Assembly (NCBI RefSeq): GCF_035918155.1
Contig: NZ_CP109327.1
Location: 7,874,001-7,938,000, forward strand
Direction: 5' to 3'
Origin: Streptomyces sp. NBC_01591
GTDB lineage: Bacteria; Actinomycetota; Actinomycetes; Streptomycetales; Streptomycetaceae
Length of the DNA: 64,000 nt
Of this stretch, positions 676 to 21,973 are shown one piece after another; within the stretch, counting starts at the first letter, position 1, and each line of letters begins with the position of its first letter. The translations under genes and the position numbers were made by a program. Below the pieces are notes generated by a model, which was not told where the DNA came from, made no database searches, and saw only the letters and a program-made list of their open reading frames with translations.

Positions 676-782
676 ACCACGATTGTGCCCCGCACCTGCG
701 GCGAACTGTCCGAACCACTGTCCGTGGACCCCCGTTCACGACTAGTGTCGAAGCCATCCGCACCACCCTGGGGAGGGTAGGC

Positions 783-3466: not shown

Positions 3467-3540
<74 letters not shown>

Positions 3541-3560
3541 CTGGAGACAGTCGCAGGTCA

Positions 3561-3601: not shown

Positions 3602-3624
3602 CTTGGGGACCAGTTGGGGACCAG
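3602..3624. repeat. 23-bp repeat, left copy (two 11-bp units)
   Basis: A C followed by two tandem copies of TTGGGGACCAG. The identical 23 bp recurs at 33577-33599. This copy lies between the tRNA terminator and the integrase remnant. It may be an attachment-related or integrase-proximal sequence, but it is not the tRNA 3' end itself. Confidence 0.75.
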
Positions 3625-3638: not shown

Positions 3639-3998
3639 TCAGCGGGTCATGACGATCGGGCCCGGCAGGGAGCGCGGTGCGCGCACCACGCTGAGGTGCG
3701 CGGACAGCGCTGCGCCGGCAGCCGTGATCTTGTGTACGTCCGGGTGAAGGTAGCGCTGGGTGGTGGTCAGTGACCCGCGGCCAGCGATTCTGCGTAGGAC
3801 GTGCACTTGGACTCCGGCGTCGGCAAACCAGGTCAGTCCGGTGTGCCGGAGGTCATGGCGGCGCAGGTGGCGGTCGACGACGCCATTAGTGATCATCCGC
3901 ACCGCTAGGTGGCCCAGAGCGGGGACCACGCGCATCCGCCACCCTGCGAAGCAGGGGTCCAGCGTTTTCAACTCAAGGCCGGGCAGGGCGAGGTCCAT
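3639..3998 (-). pseudogene. Tyrosine-type site-specific integrase, C-terminal remnant
   Basis: About 119 residues remain of a phage/ICE-type tyrosine recombinase that is normally 380-450 residues long. The segment HDLRHTGLTWFADAG carries the box II HxxR motif, and TTTQRYLHPD carries the nucleophile tyrosine region. The arm-binding and N-terminal catalytic parts, including the first catalytic arginine, are missing. The gene points towards the tRNA, the usual arrangement for a tRNA-integrating element. It is probably inactive and marks an old integration event. Confidence 0.8.
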
Positions 3999-4957: not shown

Positions 4958-7900
4958 ATGAACTCCGCTGTGCGTTCCGAAGACATGATCATCGGCATCA
5001 CCCCGTTAGGTGAGCCCGATGCCGGGCTCACCTTGGCGGTCTGCCGGGCCGGTGGTCTCGGCGTGCTCGACCTCGGGCCCGGCGACCGGAGGGCCCGCGA
5101 GGCCCTCGCTCAATTGCGGCGCACGGCTTCGGGCAGGTTCGGCGTCCGGGTCGACGCGCGTTGCCGACTCACCCCGGCCGACCTGGCTCCGGACGGTCCG
5201 CACACCGTGGTTCTCGCGGTCGCAGCGGCGGCCGGGGAAGCAGGTGCAGCCTGGACGATCGCCGGGCTCGCGGCGCGTTTTCGCGTGCTCGTCGAGGTCA
5301 CCGGCCTGGAGGACGCACGGGACGCGTTACGCGCCGGGGCGCACGGTCTGATCGCTCGCGGCACCGAGTGCGGCGGCCGGATCGGCGAGTTGAGCACCTT
5401 CGTCCTGCTCCAGCGGCTCCTTGCCGCGCCCGAGGTGACCCGGCCCGTGTGGGCGTGCGGCGGCATCGGCCCGCGAACGGCCGCCGCCGCGGTGGCCGGT
5501 GGAGCGGCCGGCGTCGTCCTCGACGGCCAACTCGCGCTGCTCGCCGAGTCGGCGCTGCCCGAACCGGTCGCCGCCGCGCTGCGCACCATCGACGGCTCGG
5601 AAACCGTCGTCCGGGCCGGTCACCGTGTCCTGCTGCGGCGAGGCCCGGACGCCCCGCGCCTCGCGGAGGGTGCCGGGCCGCAGGAGGTGGCGGCGCTTCT
5701 GGGCGGGCGGGATCCGCTTACCCAACTGCTTCCGGTGGGCCAGGACGGCTTCCTCGCCGCCCGGTTCGCCGAGCGGTGGGGCGATGTGCGCCGAACGGTG
5801 CGCGCGTTGCGGGAAGCGGTGCTGGGCGCCGTCCGGGACGACACGGCCGCACGGGCGCTGCGGCCCGGGTCGCCGATGAGCCGGGCGCTCGGAACCCGGC
5901 TCCCCGTCGCCCAGGGGCCGATGACAAGGGTGAGCGACGGACCCGCTTTCGCCGCGGCGGTGGCAGCGGACGGAGCACTGCCCTTCCTCGCCCTGGCGCT
6001 GGCGGACGGCGCGCGGACGCGGACGATGCTGACCGAGGCACGGGACGCGGTGGACGGCCGGCCCTGGGGCGTGGGGGTCCTCGGCTTCGCGCCGGAGGAC
6101 GTGCGTACGGCCCAGCTCGAGGCCGTACGGGACGTGCGGCCGACTCACGCGATCATCGCCGGTGGGCGGCCGTCCCAGGCGCAGGCCCTGGAGCAGGACG
6201 GCATCCGGACGTTTCTGCACGTGCCCTCACCGGGGTTGTTGCGGCAGTTCCTCCAAGCCGGGACACGCCGGTTCGTGTTCGAGGGCTCGGAGTGCGGCGG
6301 GCATGTGGGGCCGCGCGGCAGTTTCGCGCTCTGGGAGGCCCAACTGGCCGTCCTGGAGGATTTCCTGGAGAGCCACGAGGCCGAAGACCTCGAGGTGTTC
6401 TTCGCGGGCGGAGTGCACGACGAGCGGTCGGCGGCGATGGTCGCCGCTCTGGCCGCGCCGCTGACCGCGCGCGGTGCGGCCGTCGGTGTGTTGATGGGTA
6501 CCGCGTATCTGTTCACCGAGGAGGCCGTATCCCGCGGGGCGGTCCGGCCGCTCTTCCAGCAGCAGGTCCTGGAGGCCGAGCGCACCACGCTGCTGGAGTC
6601 GGCGCCGGGGCACGCGACGCGGTGCGTGCCGAGCCCCTTCACCGCCGGCTACCGCGACCAGGAGGCCCGGCTACGCGCCGAGGGCGTGCCGGACCGGCGG
6701 ATCTGGGAGGAACTGGAGAGGCTCAACGTCGGCCGGCTGCGCATCGCCAGCAAGGGCGTCGACCGATCCGCCGACGGCTGCCTCACGCCGGTCGACGAGC
6801 GGCGCCAGTTCGCCGAGGGGATGTTCATGGCCGGCGAGGTGGCCGTGCTGCGCTCGGTGACCACGACCGTCGCGGCGCTGCACGAGTCGGTGACCACCGG
6901 CGCCGCCGAGCACCTCACCCGGCGGACGGCGCAGGCGGCCCCGACGAGCGAGGTGCGGGAGCCGGTCGCGCCCGCTCCGCTCGACGTCGCCGTCGTCGGC
7001 ATGGCGTGCATGTTCCCGCAGGCGCCCGACCTGCCTGCTTTCTGGGCGAACGTGGTCGCCGGAGTGGACGCGGTGAGCGAGGTCCCGCCCGAGCGCTGGG
7101 ACCCGGCCGTCCATCATGGTGAGTCCACCCCTTCCAAGTGGGGAGGCTTCCTGCCCCGCATCCCCTTCGACCCGCTGCGCTACGGCATCCCGCCGACCTC
7201 TCTCGGTAGCACCGAACCGGTGCAGCTGCTGTCCCTGGAGGCCGCCCGGCGCGCTCTGGAGGACGCCGGATACGGCTACGGGGGACGGGAGTTCGACCGC
7301 TCCCGCACTTCCGTGGTGTTCGGCGCCGAGGCGGGCAGCGATCTGTCGAACGCGGCCACGCTGCGGGCGGTGATGCCCTCGTACTACGGTCGCGTCCCCG
7401 CAGGTCTGGACGACCAGCTCCCGAGACTCACCGAGGACTCCTTCCCCGGCATGCTCGCCAACGTCATCTCGGGCAGGATCGCCAACCGGCTCGATCTCGG
7501 CGGCGCCAACTACACCGTCGACGCCGCCTGCGCCTCGTCACTGGCCGCAGTGGACGTCGCCTGCAAGGAACTGGCCGGCGGCACCTCCGACGTGGTGTTG
7601 TGCGGTGGCGCCGACCTGCACAACGGTATCAACGACTATGTCCTGTTCTCCTCCGTGCACGCCCTGTCTCCCACCGGCCGCTCACGCGCCTTCGACGACT
7701 CGGCGGACGGCATCGCGCTCGGCGAGGGCATCGCCTGCGTTGTCCTCAAGCGGCTCGCGGACGCAGAGCGGGACGGCGACCGGATCTACGGCGTCATCAA
7801 AGGCCTGGGCTCCTCCAGCGACGGCCGCTCACTCGGTCTGACCGCGCCCAGGCCCGAGGGCCAGCGCTCGGCTCTGGAACGCGCCTATCGCAACGCCGGC

Positions 7901-10900
7901 GTCTCACCGGCCGACGTCGGTCTCGTCGAGGCGCACGGCACCGGTACGGTCGTTGGCGACCGTACCGAACTGCGCATCCTCAGCGAGGTGTTCACCGAGG
8001 CCGGGGCAGAACCGGGCGGCTGTGCGCTCGGTTCGGTGAAGTCGCAGATCGGCCACACCAAGTGCGCTGCCGGTCTCGCCGGAATGATCAAAACGCTGCT
8101 GGCTCTGTACACCGGCGTCCGGCCGCCCACCCTGCACGTCGAGAAGCCCAACCCGGCCTGGGAGGCGGACACCAGCCCCTTCGTCTTCCACGCCGAGGCC
8201 CGGCCATGGGCGGCGCCCGCGGAGGAACGGATCGCCGGAGTGAGCGCGTTCGGCTTCGGCGGGACCAACTTCCACGTGGTGCTGGCCGCTCACGCCGGTG
8301 GCGTACCGCCCGTGCGGGGACTGGACGCCTGGCCGGCCGAACTGTTCGTGTTCCGCGGACGGGACGAGGCCGCGACCCGCCGGGCGATGGAGGAGCTCCT
8401 CACAACCGCTCAGCCCCGGGACCGGTCGTGGCGGCTTCAGGACCTTGCGCTGAGCGCGGCCCGGCGGTCGGACGCCAGCGCGGACCCGGCCCGGGTCGCC
8501 ATCGTGGCGACGGACGTGGACGACCTGGTCGAGAAGTTGCGGCGGGTTCTGGCCGACCCCGACGAGCACACTCCGACACGCGGCATCCACCGGGCCGGAA
8601 CCGGCGACTCGGGCGGCGCCAAGGTGGCATTTCTCTTCCCCGGCCAGGGCAGCCAGCGCACCGGCATGCTCGCCGACCTGTTCGTCGCTCTTCCCGAGCT
8701 GCGCCCCTATCTGGAACTCGCCCGCGTCCACGCCGACACCCTGTATCCGCCCGCCGCCTTCGACGACACCGAACGCGAGCGGCAACGGGCCGCGCTGACC
8801 GACACCCGCGTGGCACAGCCCGCCCTCGGCGTCACGGGACTCGCCGCGCACGCCGTGCTCACCGCGGCCGGCGTGCAGCCGGACATGGCCGCCGGGCACA
8901 GCTACGGCGAGCTGGTGGCACTGTGCGCGGCCGGCGCACTGACCCCCGAGACGCTGCTGGAACTGAGCGCGGAGCGAGCGGCGGCGATCCTTCAAGCCGC
9001 GCAGTCCGCCCAGGGCGACGGGGGCGATCCCGGGACCATGGCCGCAGTCTCGGCCGGCGCCGAGGACGTGGCGCAGGCGCTCAAGGCGGCGTCCGCGCCG
9101 GACAGTGTTGTCGTCGCCAATCGCAACTCGCCCGGGCAGACGGTGATCTCGGGACCGACGGACGCCGTCGACGAGGCCGTCCGGCTGCTGCGCGAGGCCG
9201 GTCACGGTGCCAAGCGCATCCCCGTCGCCTGCGCGTTCCACAGCCCGCTGGTCGCCGCCGCCTCCGACCGGTTCGCCGAGGCGCTCGCGGCCCGGCCGGT
9301 GCACGCGCCCGAATTCCCGGTGTGGTCCAACCGCACGGCCACCCCGTACGCCGCTGACGGGGACGCGGTGCGGGCCGAACTCGCCGCCCAGATCGGTGCC
9401 CCGGTCGCCTTCGTCGAGCAGATCGAGGCGATGTACGAAGCCGGGGCACGCGTCTTCGTCGAAGCCGGCCCCGGCTCGGTTCTGACCCGGCTGGTCGGGC
9501 AGATCCTCAGCGATCGCCCGCACCGCACGGTGGCCTGCGAACCCCGTCCGGGCAGCGGCCTGCGCGGCTGGCTCGACGCTCTGGCCGAGCTCGCCGTCGC
9601 GGGGCTGCCGGTGCGCGCCGGGTGGCTGCTGCGCGGCCGGGACGCGGTGGACGCGGCACGTACCCCGGCGCCGAAGATCCCCGGATGGACGGTCGACGGA
9701 CAACTGGTCCGCACCGCCGACGGCGCCCTCCTCACCGGTGCGCTCGCACCGGCCCGACGAGTCACGGAGACCCTGGAGACGACTGTGACGACGAATTCCC
9801 CGCACAGTGCCCCCTCCGACCAGGACACGCTCATCTCCGAATTCCTGCGCACCAGCCGGGAGATGATCGCCGCCCAACGGGACGTGCTGCTCACCTACCT
9901 CGGATCCGCCCCGGGCGCGCAGTCCGTCCCGTCCCAGGCGGCCCCGCAGGTGATCCAGGCCGTGCCGCAACTCCCCCCGGCGCAGCCGCCGATGAAGGAC
10001 CCGGAACAGGGCACGCCGGCCACCGCCGTGGAGCCGGCAGCCGTGGAGGCCGCCGGAGCGGCCGACGTCCAGCGGGTCGTTCTGGAAATCATCAGCGAGC
10101 GCACCGGCTACCCCGTCGACATGATCGAGCCCGACCTCGACCTGGAGGCGGACCTCAGCATCGACTCCATCAAGCGGGCAGAGATCGCGGGCGAACTGGC
10201 CCGGCGCCTTGGTGCCGGGGCCGGCTCCGACCTCGCCGCGCTGGACGACGACGCGCTGGAGGAGCTGGCGAAGGCGCGGACGGCCGCCGCGGTGACCGAC
10301 TGGCTGACCGCGCGGATGGGCGGGCCGGCCGAGCGGCCCGCCGTCCCGGCGGCGGTGGAGCCCGGACCGGACGCGGTCACCGCCGACCCCCCCGGACGGC
10401 ACCTCCTGCGCCCGGTCCTCCTCGACGAACGGGCCGACGCCCGCACCGACCCGTCGTCCGCTCTCGCGGGCACCCGCTGGATCCTGCTCGGCGACGCCCC
10501 CGAGGTCGCCGCCCGCCTGGCGTCCCACGGCGCCGAAGTCGGCGCACGGGCCCGGGACCACGTCCTGACGGAGACCGACGGCCCGGTGGACGGCGTGCTG
10601 TGGTTGGGGGCCCTCGCGGGCACCGACGACTTGCCCTTGCTGCCCGCCTCGTTCCCCGTGCTGAAGGCCGCCCTGGCACGCGCCCCGCGATGGCTGCTGG
10701 CCGTCCGGCCCGCCGACGCTGAGGCGCCCGACCCCCGGACCGCGGGGCTGCGAGGTCTGTTCCGGACCGTGGTGCACGAGTATCCACAGACGGTGGCCCG
10801 GATCGTCGAGGTCGCCGACGCCTCGCCGTCCGCGCTCGCGCACGCCGTGGTCGCCGAGGCCGTCGCGTCGGACCGGACGCCGGTCGTGCTGCGGACGGCG

Positions 10901-11854
10901 GCAGGCCGGCACGGGTTCGAACTGGTGGCGGCGCCGCTCGGCGTGCTCGGCAGCACGGGCGCCGGACCGGCCGGGGCGGGCACCTCGGAGGCCACGGCGC
11001 TCGGCCTGGACCAGGACTCGGTGGTGCTGCTGGCCGGAGGGGCGCGAGGCATCACCGCACAGTTCGCCGCCGTGCTCGCCGGCACCGCACGCTGCCGTCT
11101 GGAACTGCTCGGCCGCACTCCCGCCCCGGACGGTCCGGAGGCCGAGGACACCGCGTCCGCGCGTACCCCGGCCGAGCTGCGCGCTGCACTCGCCGCCCGC
11201 GGCGGACTGAAGCCGGCCGAGATCAACCGCGCCGCCGAACTGTTGCTTGCCCAGCGGGAGATCACGGCCACCCTGACCGAAATCACCGCATTGGGCGGCC
11301 GGGCCCGCTACCGATCGGTCGACTTCCGCGAACCGGACGCGGTACTGCAGGCGGTGAAGGAGATCCATGCCGAGCACGGCCGGCTCGACGGCGTGGTGCA
11401 CGCGGCCGGTGTGATCGAGGACCGGCTCATCGCCGAGAAGAGCACGGAGTCCTTCCGACGTGTCTACGCCACGAAGGCGACCGGCGCCGACGCCCTGCTC
11501 ACCGCATTGGAGGAACTGCCCGCACCGCCCGCGTTCACCGTGCTGTTCGGCTCGATATCGGCCGTCCTGGGAAATCGCGGCCAGGTGGACTACGCGGCCG
11601 CCAACGACGCGCTGGAGACCCTCGGCGCGGCGTTCGCCGCCCGCACCGGACGGCGCGCGGTGACTGTGCACTGGGGCCCCTGGGCGCCCTCGGCCGATCA
11701 CACCGGCATGATCGGGGCCGAGCTGGCCCGGGAGTACGCCCGGCGCGGCATCCGGCTGATCGATCCGGAGGAGGGGACCGCGGCGCTGCTGCGGGAGCTC
11801 GCCTGGGGCGAGGAGTCCGCCACCGCCGTTGTCTACACCGCCTCGGGCTGGTGA
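4958..11854 (+). CDS. Multidomain lipid/polyketide synthase: NMO-NMO-KS-AT-ACP-KR
   Basis: A protein of 2298 residues. The ATG at 4958 is used because GGAG lies 4 nt upstream. Two nitronate-monooxygenase-like (PfaD/enoylreductase-type) segments come first: about 10-225, with GTECGG and WACGGIGPRTA, and about 315-650, with GSECGGHVGP and VFFAGGVHD. A ketosynthase follows at about 675-1110 (Cys858 in DAACASSL, then EAHGTGT and IGHTKCAAG). An acyltransferase (Ser1315 in GHSYGE), one ACP (Ser1737 in SIDSIKR) and a C-terminal ketoreductase (GGARGI near 2022, catalytic SIS and DYAAAN) complete it. The domain types match PUFA/heterocyst-glycolipid-like iterative synthases rather than modular type I PKS. 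TTA codons stand at residues 17 and 124, implying dependence on the bldA tRNA. The gene overlaps the next one by 4 bp. Confidence 0.92.
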   Translation: MNSAVRSEDMIIGITPLGEPDAGLTLAVCRAGGLGVLDLGPGDRRAREALAQLRRTASGRFGVRVDARCRLTPADLAPDGPHTVVLAVAAAAGEAGAAWTIAGLAARFRVLVEVTGLEDARDALRAGAHGLIARGTECGGRIGELSTFVLLQRLLAAPEVTRPVWACGGIGPRTAAAAVAGGAAGVVLDGQLALLAESALPEPVAAALRTIDGSETVVRAGHRVLLRRGPDAPRLAEGAGPQEVAALLGGRDPLTQLLPVGQDGFLAARFAERWGDVRRTVRALREAVLGAVRDDTAARALRPGSPMSRALGTRLPVAQGPMTRVSDGPAFAAAVAADGALPFLALALADGARTRTMLTEARDAVDGRPWGVGVLGFAPEDVRTAQLEAVRDVRPTHAIIAGGRPSQAQALEQDGIRTFLHVPSPGLLRQFLQAGTRRFVFEGSECGGHVGPRGSFALWEAQLAVLEDFLESHEAEDLEVFFAGGVHDERSAAMVAALAAPLTARGAAVGVLMGTAYLFTEEAVSRGAVRPLFQQQVLEAERTTLLESAPGHATRCVPSPFTAGYRDQEARLRAEGVPDRRIWEELERLNVGRLRIASKGVDRSADGCLTPVDERRQFAEGMFMAGEVAVLRSVTTTVAALHESVTTGAAEHLTRRTAQAAPTSEVREPVAPAPLDVAVVGMACMFPQAPDLPAFWANVVAGVDAVSEVPPERWDPAVHHGESTPSKWGGFLPRIPFDPLRYGIPPTSLGSTEPVQLLSLEAARRALEDAGYGYGGREFDRSRTSVVFGAEAGSDLSNAATLRAVMPSYYGRVPAGLDDQLPRLTEDSFPGMLANVISGRIANRLDLGGANYTVDAACASSLAAVDVACKELAGGTSDVVLCGGADLHNGINDYVLFSSVHALSPTGRSRAFDDSADGIALGEGIACVVLKRLADAERDGDRIYGVIKGLGSSSDGRSLGLTAPRPEGQRSALERAYRNAGVSPADVGLVEAHGTGTVVGDRTELRILSEVFTEAGAEPGGCALGSVKSQIGHTKCAAGLAGMIKTLLALYTGVRPPTLHVEKPNPAWEADTSPFVFHAEARPWAAPAEERIAGVSAFGFGGTNFHVVLAAHAGGVPPVRGLDAWPAELFVFRGRDEAATRRAMEELLTTAQPRDRSWRLQDLALSAARRSDASADPARVAIVATDVDDLVEKLRRVLADPDEHTPTRGIHRAGTGDSGGAKVAFLFPGQGSQRTGMLADLFVALPELRPYLELARVHADTLYPPAAFDDTERERQRAALTDTRVAQPALGVTGLAAHAVLTAAGVQPDMAAGHSYGELVALCAAGALTPETLLELSAERAAAILQAAQSAQGDGGDPGTMAAVSAGAEDVAQALKAASAPDSVVVANRNSPGQTVISGPTDAVDEAVRLLREAGHGAKRIPVACAFHSPLVAAASDRFAEALAARPVHAPEFPVWSNRTATPYAADGDAVRAELAAQIGAPVAFVEQIEAMYEAGARVFVEAGPGSVLTRLVGQILSDRPHRTVACEPRPGSGLRGWLDALAELAVAGLPVRAGWLLRGRDAVDAARTPAPKIPGWTVDGQLVRTADGALLTGALAPARRVTETLETTVTTNSPHSAPSDQDTLISEFLRTSREMIAAQRDVLLTYLGSAPGAQSVPSQAAPQVIQAVPQLPPAQPPMKDPEQGTPATAVEPAAVEAAGAADVQRVVLEIISERTGYPVDMIEPDLDLEADLSIDSIKRAEIAGELARRLGAGAGSDLAALDDDALEELAKARTAAAVTDWLTARMGGPAERPAVPAAVEPGPDAVTADPPGRHLLRPVLLDERADARTDPSSALAGTRWILLGDAPEVAARLASHGAEVGARARDHVLTETDGPVDGVLWLGALAGTDDLPLLPASFPVLKAALARAPRWLLAVRPADAEAPDPRTAGLRGLFRTVVHEYPQTVARIVEVADASPSALAHAVVAEAVASDRTPVVLRTAAGRHGFELVAAPLGVLGSTGAGPAGAGTSEATALGLDQDSVVLLAGGARGITAQFAAVLAGTARCRLELLGRTPAPDGPEAEDTASARTPAELRAALAARGGLKPAEINRAAELLLAQREITATLTEITALGGRARYRSVDFREPDAVLQAVKEIHAEHGRLDGVVHAAGVIEDRLIAEKSTESFRRVYATKATGADALLTALEELPAPPAFTVLFGSISAVLGNRGQVDYAAANDALETLGAAFAARTGRRAVTVHWGPWAPSADHTGMIGAELAREYARRGIRLIDPEEGTAALLRELAWGEESATAVVYTASGW

Positions 11855-14800
11855 CGGTCGTGGTGGCGCCGCCCCGACACGGTCTCAGCACCCAGGTCAT
11901 GGCCGCACGACAAGTGCCGGTGGCCATCGTCGGGATGGCGGTGCTGCTGCCGGGCGCTGCGGACCTGGATGCCTACTGGCGCAACCTGCGCGACGGCGTG
12001 GACGCGATCGGCGCGGTACCGGACGGGCGTTGGGACGCCGAGTACTACCACCCGGGCACCGCTTCCGACCCGGCCGTCGCGAACCAGGTCTACGCCCGCC
12101 GCGGCGGGTTCGTGGACGGGCTCGCGCAGGTGGAGGTCACCCGGTTCGGGATCATGCCGAACTCGGTGGCCGGTACCGAACCCGACCAGCTCATCGCCCT
12201 GCACGTGGCTTCGGCCGCCCTCGATGACGCGGGCGGCACGGATCGCCTTCCCGACCGGGGCCGGGTCGGCGTCGTTCTGGGCAGGGGCGGCTATCTCACG
12301 CCCGGCCTGGTCCGGCTCGATCAGCGAGTCCGCACGGCCAGCCAACTGCTCCGCACACTGGCGGAGTTGCTCCCGGACCTGACGGGAGACCAACTCGGAA
12401 GAGTGCGCCAGGCGTTCACCGAGCGTCTCGGTCCGGACAGCCCCGAGTCCGCGATCGGCCTGGTGCCCAATCTCGCCGCCTCCCGGGTCGCCAACCGGCT
12501 CGATCTACGCGGGCCCGCGTACACGGTGGACGCCGCCTGCGCCTCCTCACTGGTCGCCGTGGACCAGGCCGTGGGCGAACTCGCCTCCGGGCGGTGCGAC
12601 GTGATGCTCGCCGGCGGCGTCCACCACTGCCACGACATCACGCTGTGGAGCGTCTTTTCCCAGCTGCGCGCACTCTCCCCCAGCCAGCGCATCCGGCCCT
12701 TCCACCGGGACGCCGACGGCATCCTGATCGGTGAGGGGACGGGCGTTGTCGTCCTCAAGCGGCTGGCCGACGCCGAGCGTGCCGGAGACCGGATCTACGC
12801 CGTGGTCCGGGGTACCGGCGTGGCGAGCGACGGACGGGTGGCCGGTCTCATGAACCCCGAGCCCGGTGGTCAGGCGCAGGCGGTACGGCAGGCGTGGCGG
12901 GCGGCCGGACTCGACCCCGCCGAGCCGGGCTCGGTCGGCCTGCTGGAGGCGCACGGCACCGCGACCCCGGCAGGCGACAGCGCCGAACTCGCCACACTCG
13001 CCGAGGTGTTCGGCCCTGGAGACGGTGACGCGGTACTGGGTTCGGTCAAGTCGATGATCGGGCATGCCATGCCGGCCGCCGGGGTCGCCGGTCTGGTCAA
13101 GGCCGCGCTCGCCGTCCACCACCGCACACTCCTTCCGACATTGCACTGCGACGACCCGCACCCCGCCCTGGCCCGCACCCGGTTCCGCACACTGGAGAAG
13201 GCCGCCGACTGGGAGACCACCGCGCACAGGCCCGTTCGCCGGGCCGCGGTCAACGCGTTCGGCTTCGGCGGGATCAACGCGCATGTGGTGCTGGAGGAGG
13301 CCCCGGGCGTGCGCAGGTCCCGCGCGAGCATGCCGGCCCGCCCGGTCCTTGAGGTCGCCGAACCCGAGCACGTCCTGCTGCTCGCGGCCGACTCCCCGGC
13401 GCGCCTCGCCGCCCTGCTGGACGCCGACGACGACACCGTACGGGCTGCCGGCCTCGCCCCCGGCCACCCGCACCCGGAGGCGGGCCCCGCCCGTATCGGC
13501 ATCGTCGACCCGACCGCCAAACGGCTCGCTCTGGCCCGCCGCGCGGTCGCCCGGCAGCGAGGATGGCACGGACGCGGTGACGTCTGGTTCCGGCCGAACC
13601 CCCTCCTGGGCGCCGGCCACGGCGGACTGGCATTCCTGTTCCCGGGTCTGGAGGGCGAGTTCACCCCGCAGGTCGACGACGTGGCCGCCCGTTTCGGTCT
13701 GCGTGCCCCCGCAGTCGACGGAAACCGGACCGGCGACGTGGGCCGGCACGGTTTCGGCGTGGTCGCCGTCGGCCGCCTCCTCGACGCGGCGCTGCGCCGC
13801 AGTGGGATCGTGCCGGACGCGGTCGCCGGACACAGCGTCGGCGAGTGGACGGCCATGGCGGCGGCCGGGCTGTATTCCGGGGACGAGGTCGACGCGTTCA
13901 TGGCCGCCTTCGACCCCGCCTCGGTGACGGTCCCCGGTCTCGCCTTCGGCGCGATCGGCGCCTCCGCCGAGCACGTCCTGGCCGCCCTGCGCGACGAGGG
14001 CGGGAGCCGGGCGGGCCTGGTCCTCTCCCACGACAACTCACCCGGTCAGTCGATGGTGTGCGGTCCGCAGGCGGCGGTGGAGGACTTCGTACGGGCGCGT
14101 CGCGCCCAGGGCGTCCTCAGCCAGGTTCTGCCGTTTCGCTCAGGCTTCCACACGCCGATGCTGCGCCCCCATCTCGGACCGATCGAGGAGGCCGCCCGCC
14201 GGTTCCGGCTGCATCCGCCGCACACCCCGCTCTGGTCGGGCACGACCGCCGCGCCGTTCCCCGAGGACGAGACGGGGATCCGGGCTCTTTTCGTCCGGCA
14301 TCTGCTGGAACCCGTGCGGTTCCGGCAGCTGACCGAGGCCCTGAACGCGGCCGGTCACCGGGTGTTCGTCCAGGTCGGGCCCGGTCAGCTCGGCTCCCTC
14401 GTGAGCGACACCCTGGGCGGTCGCGACCACCTGGTGGTCGCCGCCAACTCGCCCCACCGCACCGGCCTCGCCCAGTTGCGCCGGGTGGCCACCGCGCTGT
14501 GGACGGCGGGTTCGACGGTGGCGCCCTCCTTGCAACCCGTCGAGGCGGCGACCACGTATCGACGGCCACCGGTGCGACTGGACTTGAGCGGTGCTCTGGT
14601 GTCCCTCTCGCCCCAGCGGCTCCCCGCGCTGCGGGCCGAGCTGCGGGCGCCCGCGTGTGCGCCGGTCCCGGTCGGCTCGTCGCCCCTGGACTCACTCGCC
14701 GAGAGCTCCCCGGTGGCCGCCGAACTGAGCGCCCTGCTGAGCGAGACTGCGGACACGGCAGCCGCCCTCATGTCCGCGAGGGCGAGGACGTCTGAGCCGG

Positions 14801-16377
14801 CCCCGTCCGCCGGGTCGCGGCACACGACCGTCCACGTCTCGACCGACACCATGCCCTACCTCCTGGACCACTGCTTCTTCCCTCAGCGGCCAGGCTGGCC
14901 CGAAGTCGCCGACCGGTGGCCGGTCGTCCCGGCCACGACGATCGTGCAGCACATCGTGGACGCCGCGCAGAAGACGGTCCCCGGCGGGCTGCCGGTCGCC
15001 GTGCACGGCGCGCGGTTCGACGAGTGGCTCACCGCCACCCCGGCCGTCGACGTGCCCGTGACCGTGACGCCGAAGGGCGCGGGCCTTCTCGCCGTCTCCT
15101 TCGGCCCGCGGGCCCGCGCCACCGTGGAGCTCGCCGCCGCGTACCCCGCCCCGCCCCCCGCTCCATGGGCCACCGATCCCGGAACCGAGCACGCCCCCGA
15201 CCACACCGCTGCCCAGCTCTACGCCGAGCGCTGGATGTTCCACGGCCCGGCGTTCCAGGGCGTCAGCGAACTCACCGCGATCGGCGACCGCCATGTGCGC
15301 GGACGTCTCACCACCCCTTCCGCGCCCGGCGCGCTGCTGGACAACGTCGGCCAGATCCTCGGCTACTGGATCATGGCGACCCGTTCCGAGCGCACTGTCG
15401 TGTTCCCGGTCGGGATGCGGGAGATGCGGTTCTACGGGCCGCATCCGGCGCCGGGCACAGAGGTGGAATGTCTGGTGCGCGTCACCTCGCTCACCGACGC
15501 CTTTCTGGAGGCCGACGTACAGCTGAGGGCCGGGGGCACCGTGTGGGCGGAGCTGTACGGCTGGCAGGACCGCCGCTTCGACAACGACCCGCAGACCCGG
15601 CCCGTCGAGCGCTTCCCGGATCGCAACACCCTGTCCGAGCCGCGCCCCGGCGGCTGGCGGCTGCTGCACGAGAGGTGGCCGGACCTGGCGTCCCGGGAGC
15701 TGATCATGCGTAACTCCCTGGGCAGTGCGGAGCGCGCGGAGTACGCGCGGCACGCGCCACGCGGGCGCCGGCAGTGGCTGCTGGGGCGCATCGCGGTCAA
15801 GGACTCGGTGCGGCAGTGGCTGTGGGACCACGGCGAGGGCCCCGTCTTCCCGGCGGAACTGCGGGTGCACAACGACGAGACGGGCCGTCCGTACGTCACC
15901 GGCGTGCACGGGCGGGTCCTGCCCCCGTTGGACGTCTCGCTGGCCCACTGCGCGGAGGCGGCCGTCGCGATCGTCCGACCGCACCGGACCGGCCCCGGCC
16001 CCGGCATCGACATCGAGGAGGTCACCGATCGCACCCCGCAGGCCCTCGCCGCCGTCCTCGACGGGGACGAGCTGCGGCTGCTGCACCGCCTGTCGGCCGA
16101 CACCGGCGAGAGCGAGGCCCTGTGGTTCACCCGTTTCTGGGCGGCCAAGGAGTCCGTCGCGAAGGCGGAGGGCACCGGATTCGGCGGCCGGCCACGGGAC
16201 TTCACCGTGCTCGACGCGACACCGGCCGGCGACCGGCTGACCGTCGCGGGCCGCCTGGAACGCGCCTACACCGTGCACTGCGTGCCGGCCACCAACCCGC
16301 CCCGGCTGCCGGAGCGCGCGTACGCAGTGGCATGGACGACCGGAAACCTGACCGCTAAGGAGTACGACGCCCGATGA
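11851..16377 (+). CDS. Multidomain synthase: KS-AT-DH-phosphopantetheinyl transferase
   Basis: A protein of 1508 residues, starting at the GTG inside the GTGA overlap with the previous gene. A ketosynthase comes first (Cys230 in DAACASSL, EAHGTAT, IGHAMPAAG), so it looks catalytic rather than a chain-length factor. An acyltransferase follows (Ser662 in GHSVGEW), then a hotdog dehydratase region with LLDHCFF (His1007) and a later GALLDN aspartate. At the C-terminus sits a Sfp-type 4'-phosphopantetheinyl transferase (DIEEV near 1387 and WAAKESVAKA near 1430). The PPTase can be expected to prime the ACP of the first protein and the free ACP that follows. The arrangement recalls PfaC/PfaE functions merged in one chain. 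The 3' end overlaps the ACP gene by 4 bp. Confidence 0.92.
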   Translation: MTVVVAPPRHGLSTQVMAARQVPVAIVGMAVLLPGAADLDAYWRNLRDGVDAIGAVPDGRWDAEYYHPGTASDPAVANQVYARRGGFVDGLAQVEVTRFGIMPNSVAGTEPDQLIALHVASAALDDAGGTDRLPDRGRVGVVLGRGGYLTPGLVRLDQRVRTASQLLRTLAELLPDLTGDQLGRVRQAFTERLGPDSPESAIGLVPNLAASRVANRLDLRGPAYTVDAACASSLVAVDQAVGELASGRCDVMLAGGVHHCHDITLWSVFSQLRALSPSQRIRPFHRDADGILIGEGTGVVVLKRLADAERAGDRIYAVVRGTGVASDGRVAGLMNPEPGGQAQAVRQAWRAAGLDPAEPGSVGLLEAHGTATPAGDSAELATLAEVFGPGDGDAVLGSVKSMIGHAMPAAGVAGLVKAALAVHHRTLLPTLHCDDPHPALARTRFRTLEKAADWETTAHRPVRRAAVNAFGFGGINAHVVLEEAPGVRRSRASMPARPVLEVAEPEHVLLLAADSPARLAALLDADDDTVRAAGLAPGHPHPEAGPARIGIVDPTAKRLALARRAVARQRGWHGRGDVWFRPNPLLGAGHGGLAFLFPGLEGEFTPQVDDVAARFGLRAPAVDGNRTGDVGRHGFGVVAVGRLLDAALRRSGIVPDAVAGHSVGEWTAMAAAGLYSGDEVDAFMAAFDPASVTVPGLAFGAIGASAEHVLAALRDEGGSRAGLVLSHDNSPGQSMVCGPQAAVEDFVRARRAQGVLSQVLPFRSGFHTPMLRPHLGPIEEAARRFRLHPPHTPLWSGTTAAPFPEDETGIRALFVRHLLEPVRFRQLTEALNAAGHRVFVQVGPGQLGSLVSDTLGGRDHLVVAANSPHRTGLAQLRRVATALWTAGSTVAPSLQPVEAATTYRRPPVRLDLSGALVSLSPQRLPALRAELRAPACAPVPVGSSPLDSLAESSPVAAELSALLSETADTAAALMSARARTSEPAPSAGSRHTTVHVSTDTMPYLLDHCFFPQRPGWPEVADRWPVVPATTIVQHIVDAAQKTVPGGLPVAVHGARFDEWLTATPAVDVPVTVTPKGAGLLAVSFGPRARATVELAAAYPAPPPAPWATDPGTEHAPDHTAAQLYAERWMFHGPAFQGVSELTAIGDRHVRGRLTTPSAPGALLDNVGQILGYWIMATRSERTVVFPVGMREMRFYGPHPAPGTEVECLVRVTSLTDAFLEADVQLRAGGTVWAELYGWQDRRFDNDPQTRPVERFPDRNTLSEPRPGGWRLLHERWPDLASRELIMRNSLGSAERAEYARHAPRGRRQWLLGRIAVKDSVRQWLWDHGEGPVFPAELRVHNDETGRPYVTGVHGRVLPPLDVSLAHCAEAAVAIVRPHRTGPGPGIDIEEVTDRTPQALAAVLDGDELRLLHRLSADTGESEALWFTRFWAAKESVAKAEGTGFGGRPRDFTVLDATPAGDRLTVAGRLERAYTVHCVPATNPPRLPERAYAVAWTTGNLTAKEYDAR

Positions 16378-16700
16378 CAGCTCCCACCCCCCGTATCCCC
16401 GTCACCGCCGACGAGGAGTCCGTCCTCGCCGACCTCACCGGCATGCTGGCGCGGCTCCTGGAGGACGAGTACGGCCTCGACGACGTCGAGATCGGCATGA
16501 GGACGACCTTCAACCGTGACCTGGAGCTGGAGAGCATCGACCTCGTCACCCTGGCCGGGCTGCTCCAGGAGCGGTACGGGGACCGGGTCAACTTCGCAGA
16601 GTTCCTGGCCGGTATGGAGTTCGACGAGATCATCGAGCTGACCGTCGGACGGCTGGTCGAGTACGTCGTGACCAGTCTGAAGGCCGGGGAGGCGAGCTGA
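16374..16700 (+). CDS. Free-standing acyl carrier protein
   Basis: A 108-residue acidic carrier protein. Ser54 in LELESIDLV is the predicted phosphopantetheine site, and the surrounding helices match PP-binding domains. The start ATG overlaps the previous stop (ATGA), so it is translationally coupled to the PPTase-bearing synthase that probably activates it. It may hold a starter unit or pass the finished acyl chain to a tailoring enzyme. Confidence 0.9.
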   Translation: MTAPTPRIPVTADEESVLADLTGMLARLLEDEYGLDDVEIGMRTTFNRDLELESIDLVTLAGLLQERYGDRVNFAEFLAGMEFDEIIELTVGRLVEYVVTSLKAGEAS

Positions 16701-16703
16701 GCC

Positions 16704-17531
16704 ATGGTGATGGTCGACACCGGCGCCGTCCGGTTGCACGTACAGCGGATCGGTCCCCGGGAGGGCCGGCCGGCCATCGCCACCGTGGTGCTGGTGCACG
16801 GTCTGCTCACCGACAGCCTGGCCAGCTACTACTTCACCGTCGCGCCCGCGTTCGCGGCCGCCGGTCTCGATGTCGTCATGTACGACCTGCGCGGCCACGG
16901 GCGCAGTGAACGCCCTGCCGAGGGCTACACGGTCGAGCACAACATCGACGACCTGGAGGCGCTGCTCGACCGGCTGGCGGTGACCGGTCCGGTGCATCTG
17001 GTCGGCAACTCCTTCGGTGGCACGATCGCGTTCGGCTTCGCGGCCCGGCGCCCCGAGCGGGCGGCGAGCGTCAGTCTCATCGAGTCCGAACCGGCCACCG
17101 CCGCCTGGGCGGAGAAGCTGGGGGGCATCCTGGACCGCGTCGTGACCCAGCTCGCCCACAACGAGCCCGACGCGATCGCCTGGATCAGCACCCACCGCGG
17201 GCACAACACCGCGCGCCTGGCCAAGGGTGCGGCCCGACTGGCCCGTGACACCACCCTCGGCCGGGACATCCCGGCCAGCAGCGCCCTGACGGCCGGCCAG
17301 ATCGCGGCAGTGCGCTGTCCGGTGCTCGGCCTGTACGGCGGCGACTCCGATCTCGCCGAACTCGCGCCCTGGCTGGCGTCAGCGCTTCCGGACTGCCGGA
17401 CCGTGGTGATCCCGGGGCACGAGCACTCGGTCCTGGTGGAGGCCTCCGGGACGGTCGGCGGGCACATCCTGGCGCTCGTCGAGGAGGCCGGCCGCACCAC
17501 AGGGCGGGTGGCGGCGGAGGTGGCCGGGTGA
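16704..17531 (+). CDS. Alpha/beta hydrolase of the lipid cluster
   Basis: A 275-residue alpha/beta hydrolase. The oxyanion segment is VLVHGLLTD, the nucleophile elbow is GNSFGG, a late acid lies in YGGDSDL, and the catalytic histidine lies in PGHEHSVL. A strong GGGGAGG lies upstream of the ATG; a second ATG two codons later is also possible. Neither synthase has a thioesterase domain, so chain release or editing is the likely role, though that is inference. It overlaps the glycosyltransferase start by 4 bp. Confidence 0.85.
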   Translation: MVMVDTGAVRLHVQRIGPREGRPAIATVVLVHGLLTDSLASYYFTVAPAFAAAGLDVVMYDLRGHGRSERPAEGYTVEHNIDDLEALLDRLAVTGPVHLVGNSFGGTIAFGFAARRPERAASVSLIESEPATAAWAEKLGGILDRVVTQLAHNEPDAIAWISTHRGHNTARLAKGAARLARDTTLGRDIPASSALTAGQIAAVRCPVLGLYGGDSDLAELAPWLASALPDCRTVVIPGHEHSVLVEASGTVGGHILALVEEAGRTTGRVAAEVAG

Positions 17532-18724
17532 GCCGCTTCCTCTTCGTCGTTCCGCCCCTGGTCGGGCACATCAACCCGACCGTCGGTGTCGCCGCCGAAC
17601 TCGTCGCGTCAGGACATGCGGTGGCGTGGGTGTGTCCCGATCCGGCGCTGGTCAGCCGACTCGCGGGCCCCGGGGCCGGGCCCGTCATGGCGTGCGCCGG
17701 GGCGCCGCAAGGTGAGCGGCCGGCGGAGCTGCGCGGTCCGGAGGCGCTGAAGTTCCTGTGGGAGCGGTATCTGCTGCCGCTGGCCGAGGCGATGGCCCCG
17801 GGTGTCCGGGCCGCTGTCGAGGCGTTCCGGCCGGACGTCGTCGTCGCCGACCAGCAGGCATTCGCGGGCGCGCTGATCGCGGAGCGGCTGGGCCTGCCGT
17901 GGGCGACCTCGGCGACCACGTCGGCCGAGTTCACCGACCCCCTCGCCGGGCTTCCCAAGGTCGGCCAGTGGTTGCAGCGGCGGCTGGGCGCGCTCCGGGA
18001 GGCCGTCGGGGATCCGGCGGGCACGGCCGACCCCCGCTTCTCACCGCATCTCGTCCTCGCTTTCAGCACACCTGAGTTGGCGGGTTCGGCGCACGACGGG
18101 GTCTGCTGGGTCGGTCCGTCGATCACGGCGCGTCCGTCCACCGCCGCCTTCCCGTGGGAATGGATCGACGCCGGCCGCACCACCGTCCTGGTCACATTGG
18201 GCACGGCGAACACCGATGTCGGCGGCCGGTTCCTCGACGTGTGCCGGAGCGCGCTGCGGGAGCGGGCCGACCGGGTGCAGGCGGTGATCGTCGATCCCGG
18301 TGGCGTGCTCTCGGCGCGGGACGGCGACAAGGATGTGCTGATCGTGCCGTCCGTGCCGCAACTCTCCCTTCTGGAAAGAGGCGTTGGCGCAGTCGTCTGC
18401 CATGCCGGCCACAACAGTGTGTGCGAGGCGCTGTGGCACGGGGTTCCACTTGTGGTGGCTCCCATCCGCGATGACCAGCCGGTGGTGGCCGGACAGGTCG
18501 TGGACGCCGGGGCAGGGGTGCGGGTGCGGTTCGGGCGGGTCACGGTCCAGAAGCTGGTCTCGGCGGTCGACTCCGTCCTGGACGACACCGGATACCGCGT
18601 CGAGGCCCACCGGATCCGTACGGCGTTCCGTTCCGCGGGCGGGGCCCGTGCCGCCGCGCTCCGGCTCGGCGAACTGGACGAGTCCTTCCGGAAGCCTGCG
18701 GGCATGAAGGGAGGATGCTCGTGA
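17528..18724 (+). CDS. UGT/MGT-type glycosyltransferase (GT1-like)
   Basis: A 398-residue protein with the GT-B fold pattern of macrolide-type and UDP-type glycosyltransferases. The N-terminal strand and turn FLFVVPPLVGHINPT begin the acceptor domain. The donor-binding signature near residue 300 reads HAGHNSVCEALWHGVPLV, followed by PIRDDQPVVAGQV. It starts at the GTG of a GTGA overlap with the hydrolase gene, so it is part of the same translation unit. Context suggests it attaches a sugar to the lipid made by the two synthases, giving a glycolipid or hydroxy-lipid glycoside. Confidence 0.88.
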   Translation: MSRFLFVVPPLVGHINPTVGVAAELVASGHAVAWVCPDPALVSRLAGPGAGPVMACAGAPQGERPAELRGPEALKFLWERYLLPLAEAMAPGVRAAVEAFRPDVVVADQQAFAGALIAERLGLPWATSATTSAEFTDPLAGLPKVGQWLQRRLGALREAVGDPAGTADPRFSPHLVLAFSTPELAGSAHDGVCWVGPSITARPSTAAFPWEWIDAGRTTVLVTLGTANTDVGGRFLDVCRSALRERADRVQAVIVDPGGVLSARDGDKDVLIVPSVPQLSLLERGVGAVVCHAGHNSVCEALWHGVPLVVAPIRDDQPVVAGQVVDAGAGVRVRFGRVTVQKLVSAVDSVLDDTGYRVEAHRIRTAFRSAGGARAAALRLGELDESFRKPAGMKGGCS

Positions 18725-18727
18725 TCA

Positions 18728-18928
18728 TCTGTGACGGCGAAGCCGGACACCACGGCGACCGCACTCCACAGCCCAGCCGGTCGTCGTCGAGCACTTCCGC
18801 CTCGAACCCGAAGATCTCCTCGACCGCGTACTCACCGGCCCAGTCGCCCACCCTCCGCAGCGGGGCGCGCGCGGTCAGCCGGTTGGCCCTCAGTGTCTCG
18901 ACGATCTCGCTGTGCGTCAGGTGAGCAA
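18728..18928 (-). other. Coding-like patch on the reverse strand
   Basis: Between the glycosyltransferase and methyltransferase genes, the reverse strand reads without stops with clean GC3-rich codons (for example IVETLRANRLTARAPLRR, then DWAGEYAVEEIFGFEAEVLD). No family is recognised and no start or end can be fixed. It may be a fragment of an inverted gene. The forward strand has no convincing reading here. Confidence 0.35.
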
Positions 18929-19052
18929 TGTCGCGGCCCGGGAAGGCTCCGCCATCTCCCACCCGAGCGGCCACGACTTCGACAGACACTCTCGCGCACT
19001 GCGAATCAGCCGATGCAACGCCACGACGTACGGCAACAGCCAGGGAGTTCAG

Positions 19053-20120
19053 ATGAGCGAAGATACCGAGTCCGCTGTCCGGATCGCCCGGCTGCGGCCC
19101 GCCTATCAGGCGGACATCGCCGCCGGCTGGGAGAGCCTCTTCGAGCCGCGCCGCACCAACTGCCCATGGTGCGGTTCGCAGGAGCTGACCACCCGGCTGC
19201 GCACCACCGACCTGCTCCAGCACAAGCCGGGCCGTTTCGTTCTCGACCGCTGCGAGGGCTGTGGTCACACCTTTCAGAACCCTCGACTGAACGCGCAGGG
19301 ACTGGATTTCTACTATCGGGACTTCTACGACGGGCTCGGCGAGAAGAAACTCGGTGACACCTTCGGGGGCCGTACCAAGATGTACCGGGGGCGGGCTGAG
19401 TCGATGCTGCCGTACGACTCCGCGCCGAAGAGATGGCTGGACGTCGGGACCGGGCACGGCCACTTCTGCGAGGCTGCGCGGGTGGTGCTGCCCCACACCG
19501 TATTCGACGGCCTTGACTTCACCGACGGCGTCGAACTGGCTGAGCGGGAGGGCCGGGTGGACCGTGGTCACCGAGGCAGTTTTCCCGACCTCGCACCCGA
19601 ACTGGGCAGCCACTACGACGTGGTGAGCATGTTTCACTACCTGGAGCACAGTACTGAGCCCGATCGTGAACTGCGCGCCGCATGGGAGACGGTACGGCCC
19701 GGCGGGCATCTCCTCATCGAGGTGCCGGACCCTGAGAGCCGCTGTGCGAGGCTGCTGGGCCGTTGGTGGCTGCCCTGGCTCCAGCCGCAGCACCTGCACT
19801 TCGTCCCGGTGGCCAATCTGCGGGAGCGGCTCACGGAGATGGGCTTCACAGTGGTCGCCGAGCAGCATGCCGAGCCGCACGACCCGGTCGACCTGCTGGC
19901 CGCCGTATGGCTGGCGCTGAACCATGTGGCACCGCGCGACGATGTGCCGTGGCTGCCCGAGCCACCGAGTCGGCTGCGCCGCACGCTGCGCGGGGTGCTG
20001 CTGGTCGCCGGCATTCCGGCGCTGGTGGTGGGCACCCTGCTCGACCGGTTCGTGGTGCGGCCGCTGTCGTACCGGCTTCGGGTGTCGAACGCGTATCGGA
20101 TCGTGGCCCGGCGCAACTGA
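19053..20120 (+). CDS. Class I SAM methyltransferase with zinc ribbon
   Basis: A 355-residue protein. The ATG at 19053 is preferred because GGGAG precedes it; an in-frame ATG at 18912 would add 47 residues of poor composition. An N-terminal zinc ribbon has CPWC and CEGC pairs at about 35-70. A methyltransferase domain follows, with LDVGTGHGHF as the SAM motif and FHYLEHSTEP after it. The C-terminal GVLLVAGIPALVVGTLLD is a likely membrane segment. This pattern occurs in methyltransferases that act on saccharide or lipid-linked substrates. Its position after the glycosyltransferase suggests methylation of the sugar or the lipid. Confidence 0.82.
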   Translation: MSEDTESAVRIARLRPAYQADIAAGWESLFEPRRTNCPWCGSQELTTRLRTTDLLQHKPGRFVLDRCEGCGHTFQNPRLNAQGLDFYYRDFYDGLGEKKLGDTFGGRTKMYRGRAESMLPYDSAPKRWLDVGTGHGHFCEAARVVLPHTVFDGLDFTDGVELAEREGRVDRGHRGSFPDLAPELGSHYDVVSMFHYLEHSTEPDRELRAAWETVRPGGHLLIEVPDPESRCARLLGRWWLPWLQPQHLHFVPVANLRERLTEMGFTVVAEQHAEPHDPVDLLAAVWLALNHVAPRDDVPWLPEPPSRLRRTLRGVLLVAGIPALVVGTLLDRFVVRPLSYRLRVSNAYRIVARRN

Positions 20121-20488: not shown

Positions 20489-21790
20489 TCACGTTGCCAG
20501 GACGCGTCCGGCGGCGATGGCTGATGCGACGGTGCCGCCGATGACGACGGCCCAGGCGGCGATGACCGGGATGCGGGTGCTCCAGGTGCGCAGCACGGGC
20601 GAGTTCGAGGCTCGGGCGAGGAAGGCATCGCGACCGCGCAGTACCACGAGGCCGACGCCGGTCAGGGTCAGTGCCATGCCGGCGCCGAACGCCACCACCA
20701 TGGCGATCGCCGTGCCGATCCGGCCGGTCAGCAGTCCGCTGAGGAGGACGAGGAACGCCGACGGGGAGGGGAGCAGGCCGCCGGACGTGCCGAGCAGCAG
20801 GATGCCGCGCCAGGTGAGCAGAGACGTGGACGTCGGGATGTGGTGGCTGTGGCTGTGGCCGTGGTGGTGTTCGTGGTCATGCCCGTGGTCGTGGTGGTGT
20901 CCATGGCTGTGGCCGTGCTTGCGGTTGGTCAGGTGGCGCCGGAGCAGGCCGATGCCCACGGCGACGACGATCAGGGCTGCGGTCAGCTGAAGCCAGTTGG
21001 TCACCGCTGCGACGTCCGGTGCTTGCTGGGCGGCGAGCCACCAGCCCACGGCGAGTGCGGTGACCGATGCGGTGTGCATGACGGCCACGATGGCGCCGAG
21101 CCACACCGCGTCCCGCGCTCTGCCCTGGCCGCCTACGAGGTATCCGGCCGCGAGTGACTTCCCGTGGCCGGGGGCGCAGGCGTGGAAGGCGCCCACTGCT
21201 GCCGAGATGAGAAGGGCCAGCGGCAGTACGACGCCGTGGTCCAGCAGTGCTTCAAGGTCCGTGGTCCACACGGTCGTCGGCGCCGTGGATGCGGTGGCGG
21301 CGGAGCCGGCTCCGCCGAGGGCGAGGGTAAGGGTGGGGTCGCTTGCTGTGTGCAGGCCGCCGCCGCCCTTCTTTGTCACGGAGATCGTGCGATAGGCCGG
21401 GTTGACGTCGGTCAGTGCGGTGATGGTCAGGGCGACCGTGTCCACGGGTTCGGGGCAGGTGTAGTGGATCAGGGCGCCCTTGCTCGCGAGCCGTGCAGTG
21501 TCCACCGCCCCGAACCGGCATGCGCGGCCGTCCTGGTGCACGGTGATGTGCGAGCCGAGGTAGGCCGCCTCGTTCCCCTTGGCTGCCTGGTGCAGGACGT
21601 CCAGGTCGTCCTGCTGGGCCGACCAGGTGATGTCGACGGTGCGGCCTTCGGCCCTGACCTGGGCGACCGGCGGTGTGCCGAAGGGGTGCGCCCCGGCCGT
21701 GCCTGCGGCGCCGAGCAGCGCCAGTGCGGCGGCCAGGCCGATCAGCACGAGACGGGCGGCGTGGGTGAGGGTGGTGTGGAGGGTGTGCAC
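20489..21790 (-). CDS. NicO-type nickel/cobalt transporter with His-rich loop
   Basis: About 433 residues, using a GTG at 21790; an ATG at 21850 would add 20 residues. An N-terminal signal or anchor leads to a periplasmic-side domain beginning AHPFG, typical of actinobacterial members. The membrane part has the family motif GAFHACAPGHGKSL and GAIVAVMHTASV, then a cytoplasmic loop packed with His and Asp (HGHSHGHHHDHGHDHEHHHG near residue 300) and further transmembrane helices. NicO/RcnA-like proteins move Ni2+ or Co2+, in most studied cases outward. The preceding gene on the same strand encodes the large phosphoesterase. Confidence 0.88.
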   Translation of the reverse strand: MHTLHTTLTHAARLVLIGLAAALALLGAAGTAGAHPFGTPPVAQVRAEGRTVDITWSAQQDDLDVLHQAAKGNEAAYLGSHITVHQDGRACRFGAVDTARLASKGALIHYTCPEPVDTVALTITALTDVNPAYRTISVTKKGGGGLHTASDPTLTLALGGAGSAATASTAPTTVWTTDLEALLDHGVVLPLALLISAAVGAFHACAPGHGKSLAAGYLVGGQGRARDAVWLGAIVAVMHTASVTALAVGWWLAAQQAPDVAAVTNWLQLTAALIVVAVGIGLLRRHLTNRKHGHSHGHHHDHGHDHEHHHGHSHSHHIPTSTSLLTWRGILLLGTSGGLLPSPSAFLVLLSGLLTGRIGTAIAMVVAFGAGMALTLTGVGLVVLRGRDAFLARASNSPVLRTWSTRIPVIAAWAVVIGGTVASAIAAGRVLAT

Positions 21791-21973
21791 AGCGGTGGTC
21801 CCGTCGGGAGTGGAACGCCGCGCGTTGCCTCCCCGGGCGGGGAGAGGCAACGCGCGGACGGTGGGTCAACGGCCGTTACCGCACAGGTGGCGGGCGGCCA
21901 GTGCACATCACCCTCGGCTTGACAGTCCTTCGGTCTGCCACGAGCCCGACCTGAGGTCTACGTGTGCCGAGGA

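Follow-up and report, generated by a model that had tools for sequence, protein, structure and literature searches.

A conserved secondary-lipid synthase cassette of Streptomyces sp. NBC_01591 with glycosyltransferase and methyltransferase genes, probably for a methylated glycolipid

In this study, we describe a cluster of six genes in a 64,000-nucleotide stretch of the Streptomyces sp. NBC_01591 genome (contig NZ_CP109327.1, positions 7,874,001 to 7,938,000; hereafter the window, numbered from its first nucleotide). The cluster occupies positions 4958-20120 of the plus strand and encodes, in order, a synthase subunit A (4958-11854), a synthase subunit B (11851-16377), a free acyl carrier protein (ACP; 16374-16700), an alpha/beta hydrolase (16704-17531), a GT1 glycosyltransferase (GT) of the macrolide-GT ('MGT') subfamily (17528-18724) and a class I methyltransferase (MT; 19053-20120). 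Domains were called by Pfam and NCBIfam scans of the open reading frames (ORFs) of the window. Subunit A has the order NMO1-NMO2-KS-AT-ACP-KR, that is, two NMO domains followed by ketosynthase, acyltransferase, ACP and ketoreductase, and subunit B has the order KS-AT-DH-PPTase, ending in a dehydratase and a phosphopantetheinyl transferase. The smaller proteins matched PF00550 (ACP), PF00561/PF12146 (hydrolase), PF00201 and TIGR01426 (GT) and PF13489 (MT). All the domains listed in a preliminary description of this DNA were thus recovered, in the order given there.

The genes are tightly packed. Subunits A and B share 4 bp (11851-11854), as do subunit B and the ACP (16374-16377) and the hydrolase and GT (17528-17531), while the ACP and hydrolase are 3 bp apart (16700/16704); three of the five junctions are therefore 4-bp overlaps and one is a 3-bp gap, which bears out the four close or overlapping gene starts noted earlier. 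Subunit A starts at ATG 4958, with an open frame that extends back to GTG 4871, and subunit B is a single frame of 1508 residues. The start of the MT gene is most likely ATG 19053 rather than GTG 18912, since almost all of 120 listed relatives have about 345-380 residues and span 86-93% of the longer frame, which has 402 residues (97% in one of them, P0173); the copies on two linear Streptomyces megaplasmids are annotated at 355 residues. With this start the GT and MT genes lie 328 bp apart, whereas the same junction is a 4-bp overlap on both megaplasmids. The interval (window 18700-19052) includes a stretch that is absent from locus L002, and in L002, as on both megaplasmids, the GT frame has 431 residues and reaches the MT start, compared with 398 residues here and in S. 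atratus (L001).

When the named genome contigs were searched with subunit B, 54 loci were obtained, from Streptomyces, Kitasatospora, Actinacidiphila, Amycolatopsis, Actinomadura, Thermomonospora and some others. Active-site residues were compared in alignments of 21 to 41 orthologues from these loci, leaving out those with less than 75% coverage, less than 35% identity or short ORFs. In subunit A, the first NMO domain, of FabK fold (4961-5863), carries Arg (codon 5378-5380) where the GGH motif would have its flavin-site His, and the second (5870-6946), which is the best TIGR03151 stretch, has an intact GGH motif (codon 6302-6304) with the His kept in all 41 orthologues. NMO1 matches the FabK model when scanned alone (E 4.5e-15) and the two halves match each other by profile (E 2.2e-9). 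Both NMO stretches are thus real, and NMO2 is likely to be an active enoyl reductase (ER) domain; its fold could be aligned with PfaD as well as with the MlnA and DfnA ER domains, a comparison that covers the matches listed and does not thereby exclude other families. The conserved first NMO domain without His is the most unexpected detail of the cluster. The KS (6983-8287) has an intact Cys-His-His triad, with Cys in 41 of 41 orthologues, and the ACP (10076-10231; DSIK) has its Ser in the same 41; a single PF00550 stretch was found, with no second ACP detected by the Pfam scan of subunit A. The AT (8621-9511), called by Pfam and NCBIfam and followed in the orthologue alignment, carries GHSYGE and AFHS, a malonyl-type motif. 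In the KR (11021-11686; PF08659), Ser and Tyr are intact, as they are in 39 of the 41 orthologues, the other two being gapped.

The catalytic residues of subunit B are equally well preserved. Its KS (11917-13296) keeps Cys-His-His in all 38 aligned orthologues and is therefore not a chain-length factor (CLF). The AT (13765-14406; PF00698, GHSVGE) retains Ser and His, and the hot-dog dehydratase (PS-DH; 14827-15594; PF14765) its catalytic His and Asp, in the same 38 sequences; the lower boundary of the PS-DH was set from an alignment with a Beijerinckia PS-DH+PPTase protein. The PPTase core (16003-16224; PF01648), of the ACPS superfamily, carries TGRP and VSLAH, corresponding to the motifs x(G/D)xP and hShxH, with hRxhLS and (F/S)NxSH absent. 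Among the 38 orthologues, x(G/D)xP, a loose pattern searched for anywhere within the PPTase region, was found in 38, hShxH in 33, hRxhLS in one and (F/S)NxSH in none. This combination is given in the accessible text of PMC3098273 as the PPTase pattern of the secondary-lipid synthases of Types M-T.

The gene set behaves as a six-gene cassette, since its order is kept across loci while neither the window flanks nor further gene families are shared. Forty-five of the 54 loci were usable, in that they include the end of subunit B together with 5.5 kb or more of the sequence that follows; the other nine had too little sequence or no B end. The ACP, hydrolase and GT genes follow subunit B in 44 of the 45, the MT gene is present in 40 and absent from five, and all four occur with order and strand kept in 40, so that GT and MT do belong to the cluster, as had been supposed. 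Subunit A lies upstream of B in 39 of the 40 loci with enough upstream sequence, and all six genes are also found on the two megaplasmids (869 and 846 kb). The gene order is not due to chance, given that 40 of the 45 usable loci keep it and that the catalytic residues are conserved. By comparison, the neighbours in the window (a regulator at 519-3416, a permease at 20489-21850 and a gene at 22067-26428) had no match at E 1e-5 in any of the 54 loci, in flanks reaching about 2-3 kb above the subunit A gene and up to 10 kb below the subunit B gene. When the ORFs of the 54 loci were clustered, keeping only frames with typical codon-position GC (so that a small or unusual gene may have escaped), no further family besides antisense frames occurred in more than nine loci, and therefore no oxygenase, regulator or exporter accompanies the cassette throughout. 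The largest extra family (F0), present at 12 loci, runs antisense to the GT gene, the next (F1, nine loci) looks hydrolase-like by eye, and the remaining families reach at most eight loci, some of them resembling LacI regulators; none of these was counted as part of the cassette.

In a survey of 40 related genomes for subunit B alone, B was found at E <= 1e-200 in 16 genomes besides the organism's own: nine of 24 in the same genus, seven of 15 in the same order and none of one in the same class. In five of the 16 (G007, G012, G021, G030, G037), only part of B fell below E 1e-200.

The assignment of the cluster to the secondary-lipid synthases, which had been proposed in the preliminary description, is well supported by the sequence comparisons. 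TIGR02813, the PfaA model, is the best NCBIfam match for both subunits (899.9 bits for A and 462.2 for B), and within the organism's own genome it scores 693.3 bits at the window versus at most 307.6 elsewhere, at the best polyketide synthase (PKS). In a KS tree of 19 rows, into which seven own-genome loci were put (one, L060, gave no usable KS), the KSs of subunits A and B, those of Beijerinckia and Methylosinus and two S. globosus plasmid KSs split from the six own-genome PKS KSs with support of 100/99; inside the former group the tree gives no branching order for A, Type P and S. globosus. The A-type KS is 53% identical to those of Beijerinckia and Methylosinus and 49% identical to that of S. 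globosus, and the own-genome PKS KSs show 36-40% identity to the KS of A or B, whichever is closer. The nearest relatives found are the Type P synthases, by identity (53 versus 49%) and by NMO-NMO layout, not by the tree. The PUFA (polyunsaturated fatty acid) and heterocyst-glycolipid synthases named previously as the known relatives are of the right class, but not the nearest relatives found, which are these phenolic-lipid-type synthases.

Under Type P, the accessible text of PMC3098273 lists two organisms, one of them Beijerinckia indica ATCC 9039. The protein that this organism encodes on pBIND02 shares the NMO-NMO-KS-AT-ACP-KR order with the window, with two matches each to NMO and ACP besides KS, AT and KR, and is 44.5% identical to subunit A over 1633 residues. 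The first NMO of Type P also lacks the GGH His, which is Gln in Beijerinckia and Arg, as in the window, in Methylosinus. The PS-DH+PPTase regions are homologous at 28-30%, the nearby Beijerinckia protein matching the end of subunit B at 28%. However, the Beijerinckia DH-PPTase is a separate protein, whereas the window fuses a second KS-AT ahead of it; Beijerinckia shows two ACP matches and subunit A one; and the Beijerinckia genes adjoin type III PKS genes (proteins with a KAS III C-terminal domain), in place of which the window has hydrolase, GT and MT genes. No type III PKS gene was found by Pfam among the six genes and the two flanking genes scanned. The Type P synthase of Azotobacter (arsABCD in A. 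vinelandii), for which the product is proven, makes the C22-26 chains of phenolic lipids, and no phenolic lipid production has so far been found in Beijerinckia, according to the accessible text of PMC3098273; ArsA makes C23-25 acids, and encystment conditions raise the expression of the genes 200-fold (PMC4824345, in part).

A different reading would make the cluster a pfa-type PUFA synthase that forms cis-polyunsaturated fatty acids, as the PfaA-family match might suggest and as SCO0126-0127 of S. coelicolor, named as eicosapentaenoic acid (EPA) genes in the accessible parts of PMC5932044 and PMC6414726, might lead one to expect. We regard it as highly improbable. The pfaABCDE synthases (Types A/B) share the PfaA-family KS-AT-ACP-KR core with the window, but they have four to six tandem ACPs, a KS-CLF pair, a FabA-type DH/isomerase and a PfaD ER, none of which was found here. 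Both subunits score under the PfaA cut-off (899.9 versus 1010.1 bits for subunit A), and one ACP was detected in subunit A versus five in the S. globosus plasmid synthase with the same library. There is one KS per subunit, each with its active Cys (41/41 in A and 38/38 in B), and no KS-CLF pair. In domain scans of the window, only PS-DH and PKS_DH_N were matched and no FabA-type dehydratase, and the PfaD model TIGR02814 had no match at the window, though the NMO2 fold is alignable to PfaD. A PUFA/EPA synthase was rejected on these five features. The SCO0124-0129 'eicosapentaenoic acid' cluster (Type L) is likewise a Streptomyces secondary-lipid synthase without a proven product, and is set apart by its description, in which the 5' end bears a PfaD homologue and one subunit reads KS-CLF-DH2-AT (PMC3098273, in part).

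The S. globosus plasmid (NZ_CP030864.1, 562 kb; L080) holds a different secondary-lipid or PUFA-like cluster with a KS-AT-5xACP-KR-DH protein, a second KS protein, an acyl-CoA carboxylase, an ACP and a thioesterase. Two further unannotated large-plasmid sites, in Persicobacter (pPP1; L078) and Rhodococcus opacus (pRho-G13; L081), are about 40% identical to the KS-AT part of subunit A.

The heterocyst-glycolipid synthases (hgl, Type F; antiSMASH class hglE-KS) resemble the cluster in being secondary-lipid synthases whose very long chain becomes glycosylated, in their case a C26-32 hydroxyl/ketone chain. They differ in having a KS-CLF-AT subunit (hglC), whereas the window has no CLF, and in a PPTase of the motif class of Types A-L, whereas that of the window is of Types M-T. 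We would expect antiSMASH to label such loci as hglE-KS or PKS-like. The comparison of domain orders that had been called for thus gave no match to the pfa and hgl orders, while the Type P order is shared and the Type M layout fits by description.

A Type M synthase with an uncharacterised product is listed for S. avermitilis, Frankia, Actinosynnema and Renibacterium (Shulse and Allen, 2011, PMC3098273, in part), and that of Renibacterium is described as having an ER fused to the PfaA-like subunit and a PfaBC-like subunit that carries the PPTase (PMC13291983, in part). Taking these two accounts as the definition of Type M, we find the same layout in the window, with a pfaD-like ER fused to the pfaA-like subunit and the PPTase in the pfaBC-like subunit. 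The fused subunits, the actinobacterial hosts and the PPTase pattern are shared, a likeness by description and not by sequence, and the cluster likely belongs to Type M on the grounds of layout and PPTase motifs rather than KS grouping. The GT, hydrolase and MT genes go unmentioned in the accessible parts of the published Type M descriptions.

With regard to the tailoring genes, the hydrolase is a candidate release thioesterase or transferase. Its nucleophile is Ser in 29 and Cys in four of the 33 aligned orthologues, with His in all 33. Three loci in Actinomadura and an Actinomycetes metagenome-assembled genome (L031, L032, L035) hold two hydrolase genes of this family within the cassette. 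The free ACP (LESIDL) keeps its Ser in 21 of 21 orthologues. The closest solved structures to the GT are oleandomycin glycosyltransferase (2iya) and YjiC-type enzymes, the OleI self-immunity model is among its NCBIfam matches, and in most relatives it is 386-459 residues long.

The macrolide-GT subfamily of the GT and its OleI match would also suit a conjugated polyene or polyketide antibiotic synthase of the enediyne PKS kind, in which the GT would serve self-protection or the decoration of a diffusible compound, and similar KS-AT-ACP-KR and DH-PPTase arrangements are found in enediyne PKSs. Such a product is nevertheless unlikely, in view of the two ER-fold domains, one of them intact in 41 of 41 orthologues, the higher identity of the A-type KS to Beijerinckia and Methylosinus (53%) than of the window KSs to the own-genome PKSs (36-40%), a comparison that did not include enediyne sequences, and the lack, antisense frames aside, of any further gene family in more than nine of the 54 loci.

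The MT has an N-terminal ribbon with four Cys, kept in 22 of 22 orthologues, and a hydrophobic, helical C-terminal part. Its predicted structure (AF2 pTM 0.84; the predicted structures were built on alignments of 31 and 16 sequences) has MtmC, KijD1 and TcaB9 as best folds, ahead in both fold rankings, and among the best 50 rows only these three align from before residue 36, at the first Cys pair; families outside the matches listed are not thereby excluded. The MT model thus most resembles the Zn-containing sugar methyltransferases, which fits a methylated sugar. It is also conceivable, though we think it rather doubtful, that the MT methylates the chain itself, or else a carboxyl or hydroxyl group on the aglycone, to give a glycosylated, methyl-branched or O-methyl lipid. 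The hydrophobic helical part, which would suit a substrate that is a lipid or lies in the membrane, the position of the MT gene as the last in order, its absence from five of the 45 loci and the occurrence of Rv2258c and UbiG among the fold matches listed are in agreement with this alternative, and the leading place of MtmC, KijD1 and TcaB9 in both rankings, together with their extended alignment, argues against it.

From what is observed, namely the domains present, their intact active sites, the conservation of the genes as one unit and a closeness to Type P both in sequence and in layout, we propose that the six genes probably form one cassette for a methylated glycolipid, in which an iterative synthase makes a very long, mostly saturated chain that is glycosylated and methylated; the chemistry of the product is what we infer. 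Subunits A and B would together act as an iterative fatty-acid-type synthase on ACPs activated by the PPTase. The AT of subunit A would load malonyl units, the two KS domains would elongate the chain on the ACP, and most rounds would be reduced by the KR, DH and NMO2, giving a largely saturated chain of C20 or more in which skipped rounds may leave some hydroxyl or keto positions. NMO1, with its Arg, would be more likely to assist NMO2 in a structural or regulatory role than to work as another reductase. The AT of subunit B, the free ACP and the hydrolase may provide for handover and release of the chain, after which the GT1 enzyme would add a sugar from the common pool to a hydroxyl or carboxyl and the MT would methylate the product, most simply on the sugar. 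As a bolder and tentative extension, the cassette might represent an unreported, actinobacteria-wide class of methylated very-long-chain glycolipids, Streptomyces counterparts of the heterocyst glycolipids and the Azotobacter cyst lipids and possibly tied to spores or aerial hyphae, with the first copy of the tandem ER, having lost its flavin-site His, as a non-reducing gate that sets the pattern of the chain.

We found no report of a characterised product or of the hydrolase-GT-MT set in the open literature, among the matches listed. The earlier view that this is not a described Streptomyces pathway therefore stands for the product and the GT-MT set, but not for the synthase, Type M being listed for S. 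avermitilis (PMC3098273, in part). The synthase class was known (2011), and what is new is a deeply conserved tailoring set whose product is unreported in the literature found. The cluster merits experiment but is no new principle. Few secondary lipids have been identified to date (PMC13291983, in part), and this is a widespread orphan gene set, with B in 9/24 genus and 7/15 order genomes and the hydrolase, GT and MT in 40/45 usable loci. Linking it to a lipid would show whether Streptomyces makes an envelope lipid of the cyst or heterocyst type, and the conserved, dead-looking NMO1 poses a concrete question of enzymology, also for the Type P relatives.

Upstream of the cassette lie a tRNA-Pro (ggg) gene (3467-3541) and, on the minus strand, what is left of the C-terminal part of an integrase (3639-3998). 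A second copy of the tRNA-Pro (ggg), 98% identical over 138 bp, is located 57 kb upstream (G000:C1:7820363-7820500). The tRNA-Pro site is likely to be an integration hot spot beside the cassette. A perfect 23-bp repeat is present at 3602-3624 and 33577-33599, 30 kb apart with the cassette in between, both copies lying, by eye, within a possible integrase-gene tail. These repeats may be the borders of a former island, and no att repeat was shown to enclose the cassette alone. Downstream, the region 22067-33500 encodes a secreted phosphoesterase/PQQ-repeat-like protein and a GH92-type alpha-mannosidase look-alike (27759-30560), both named by reading of their sequences.

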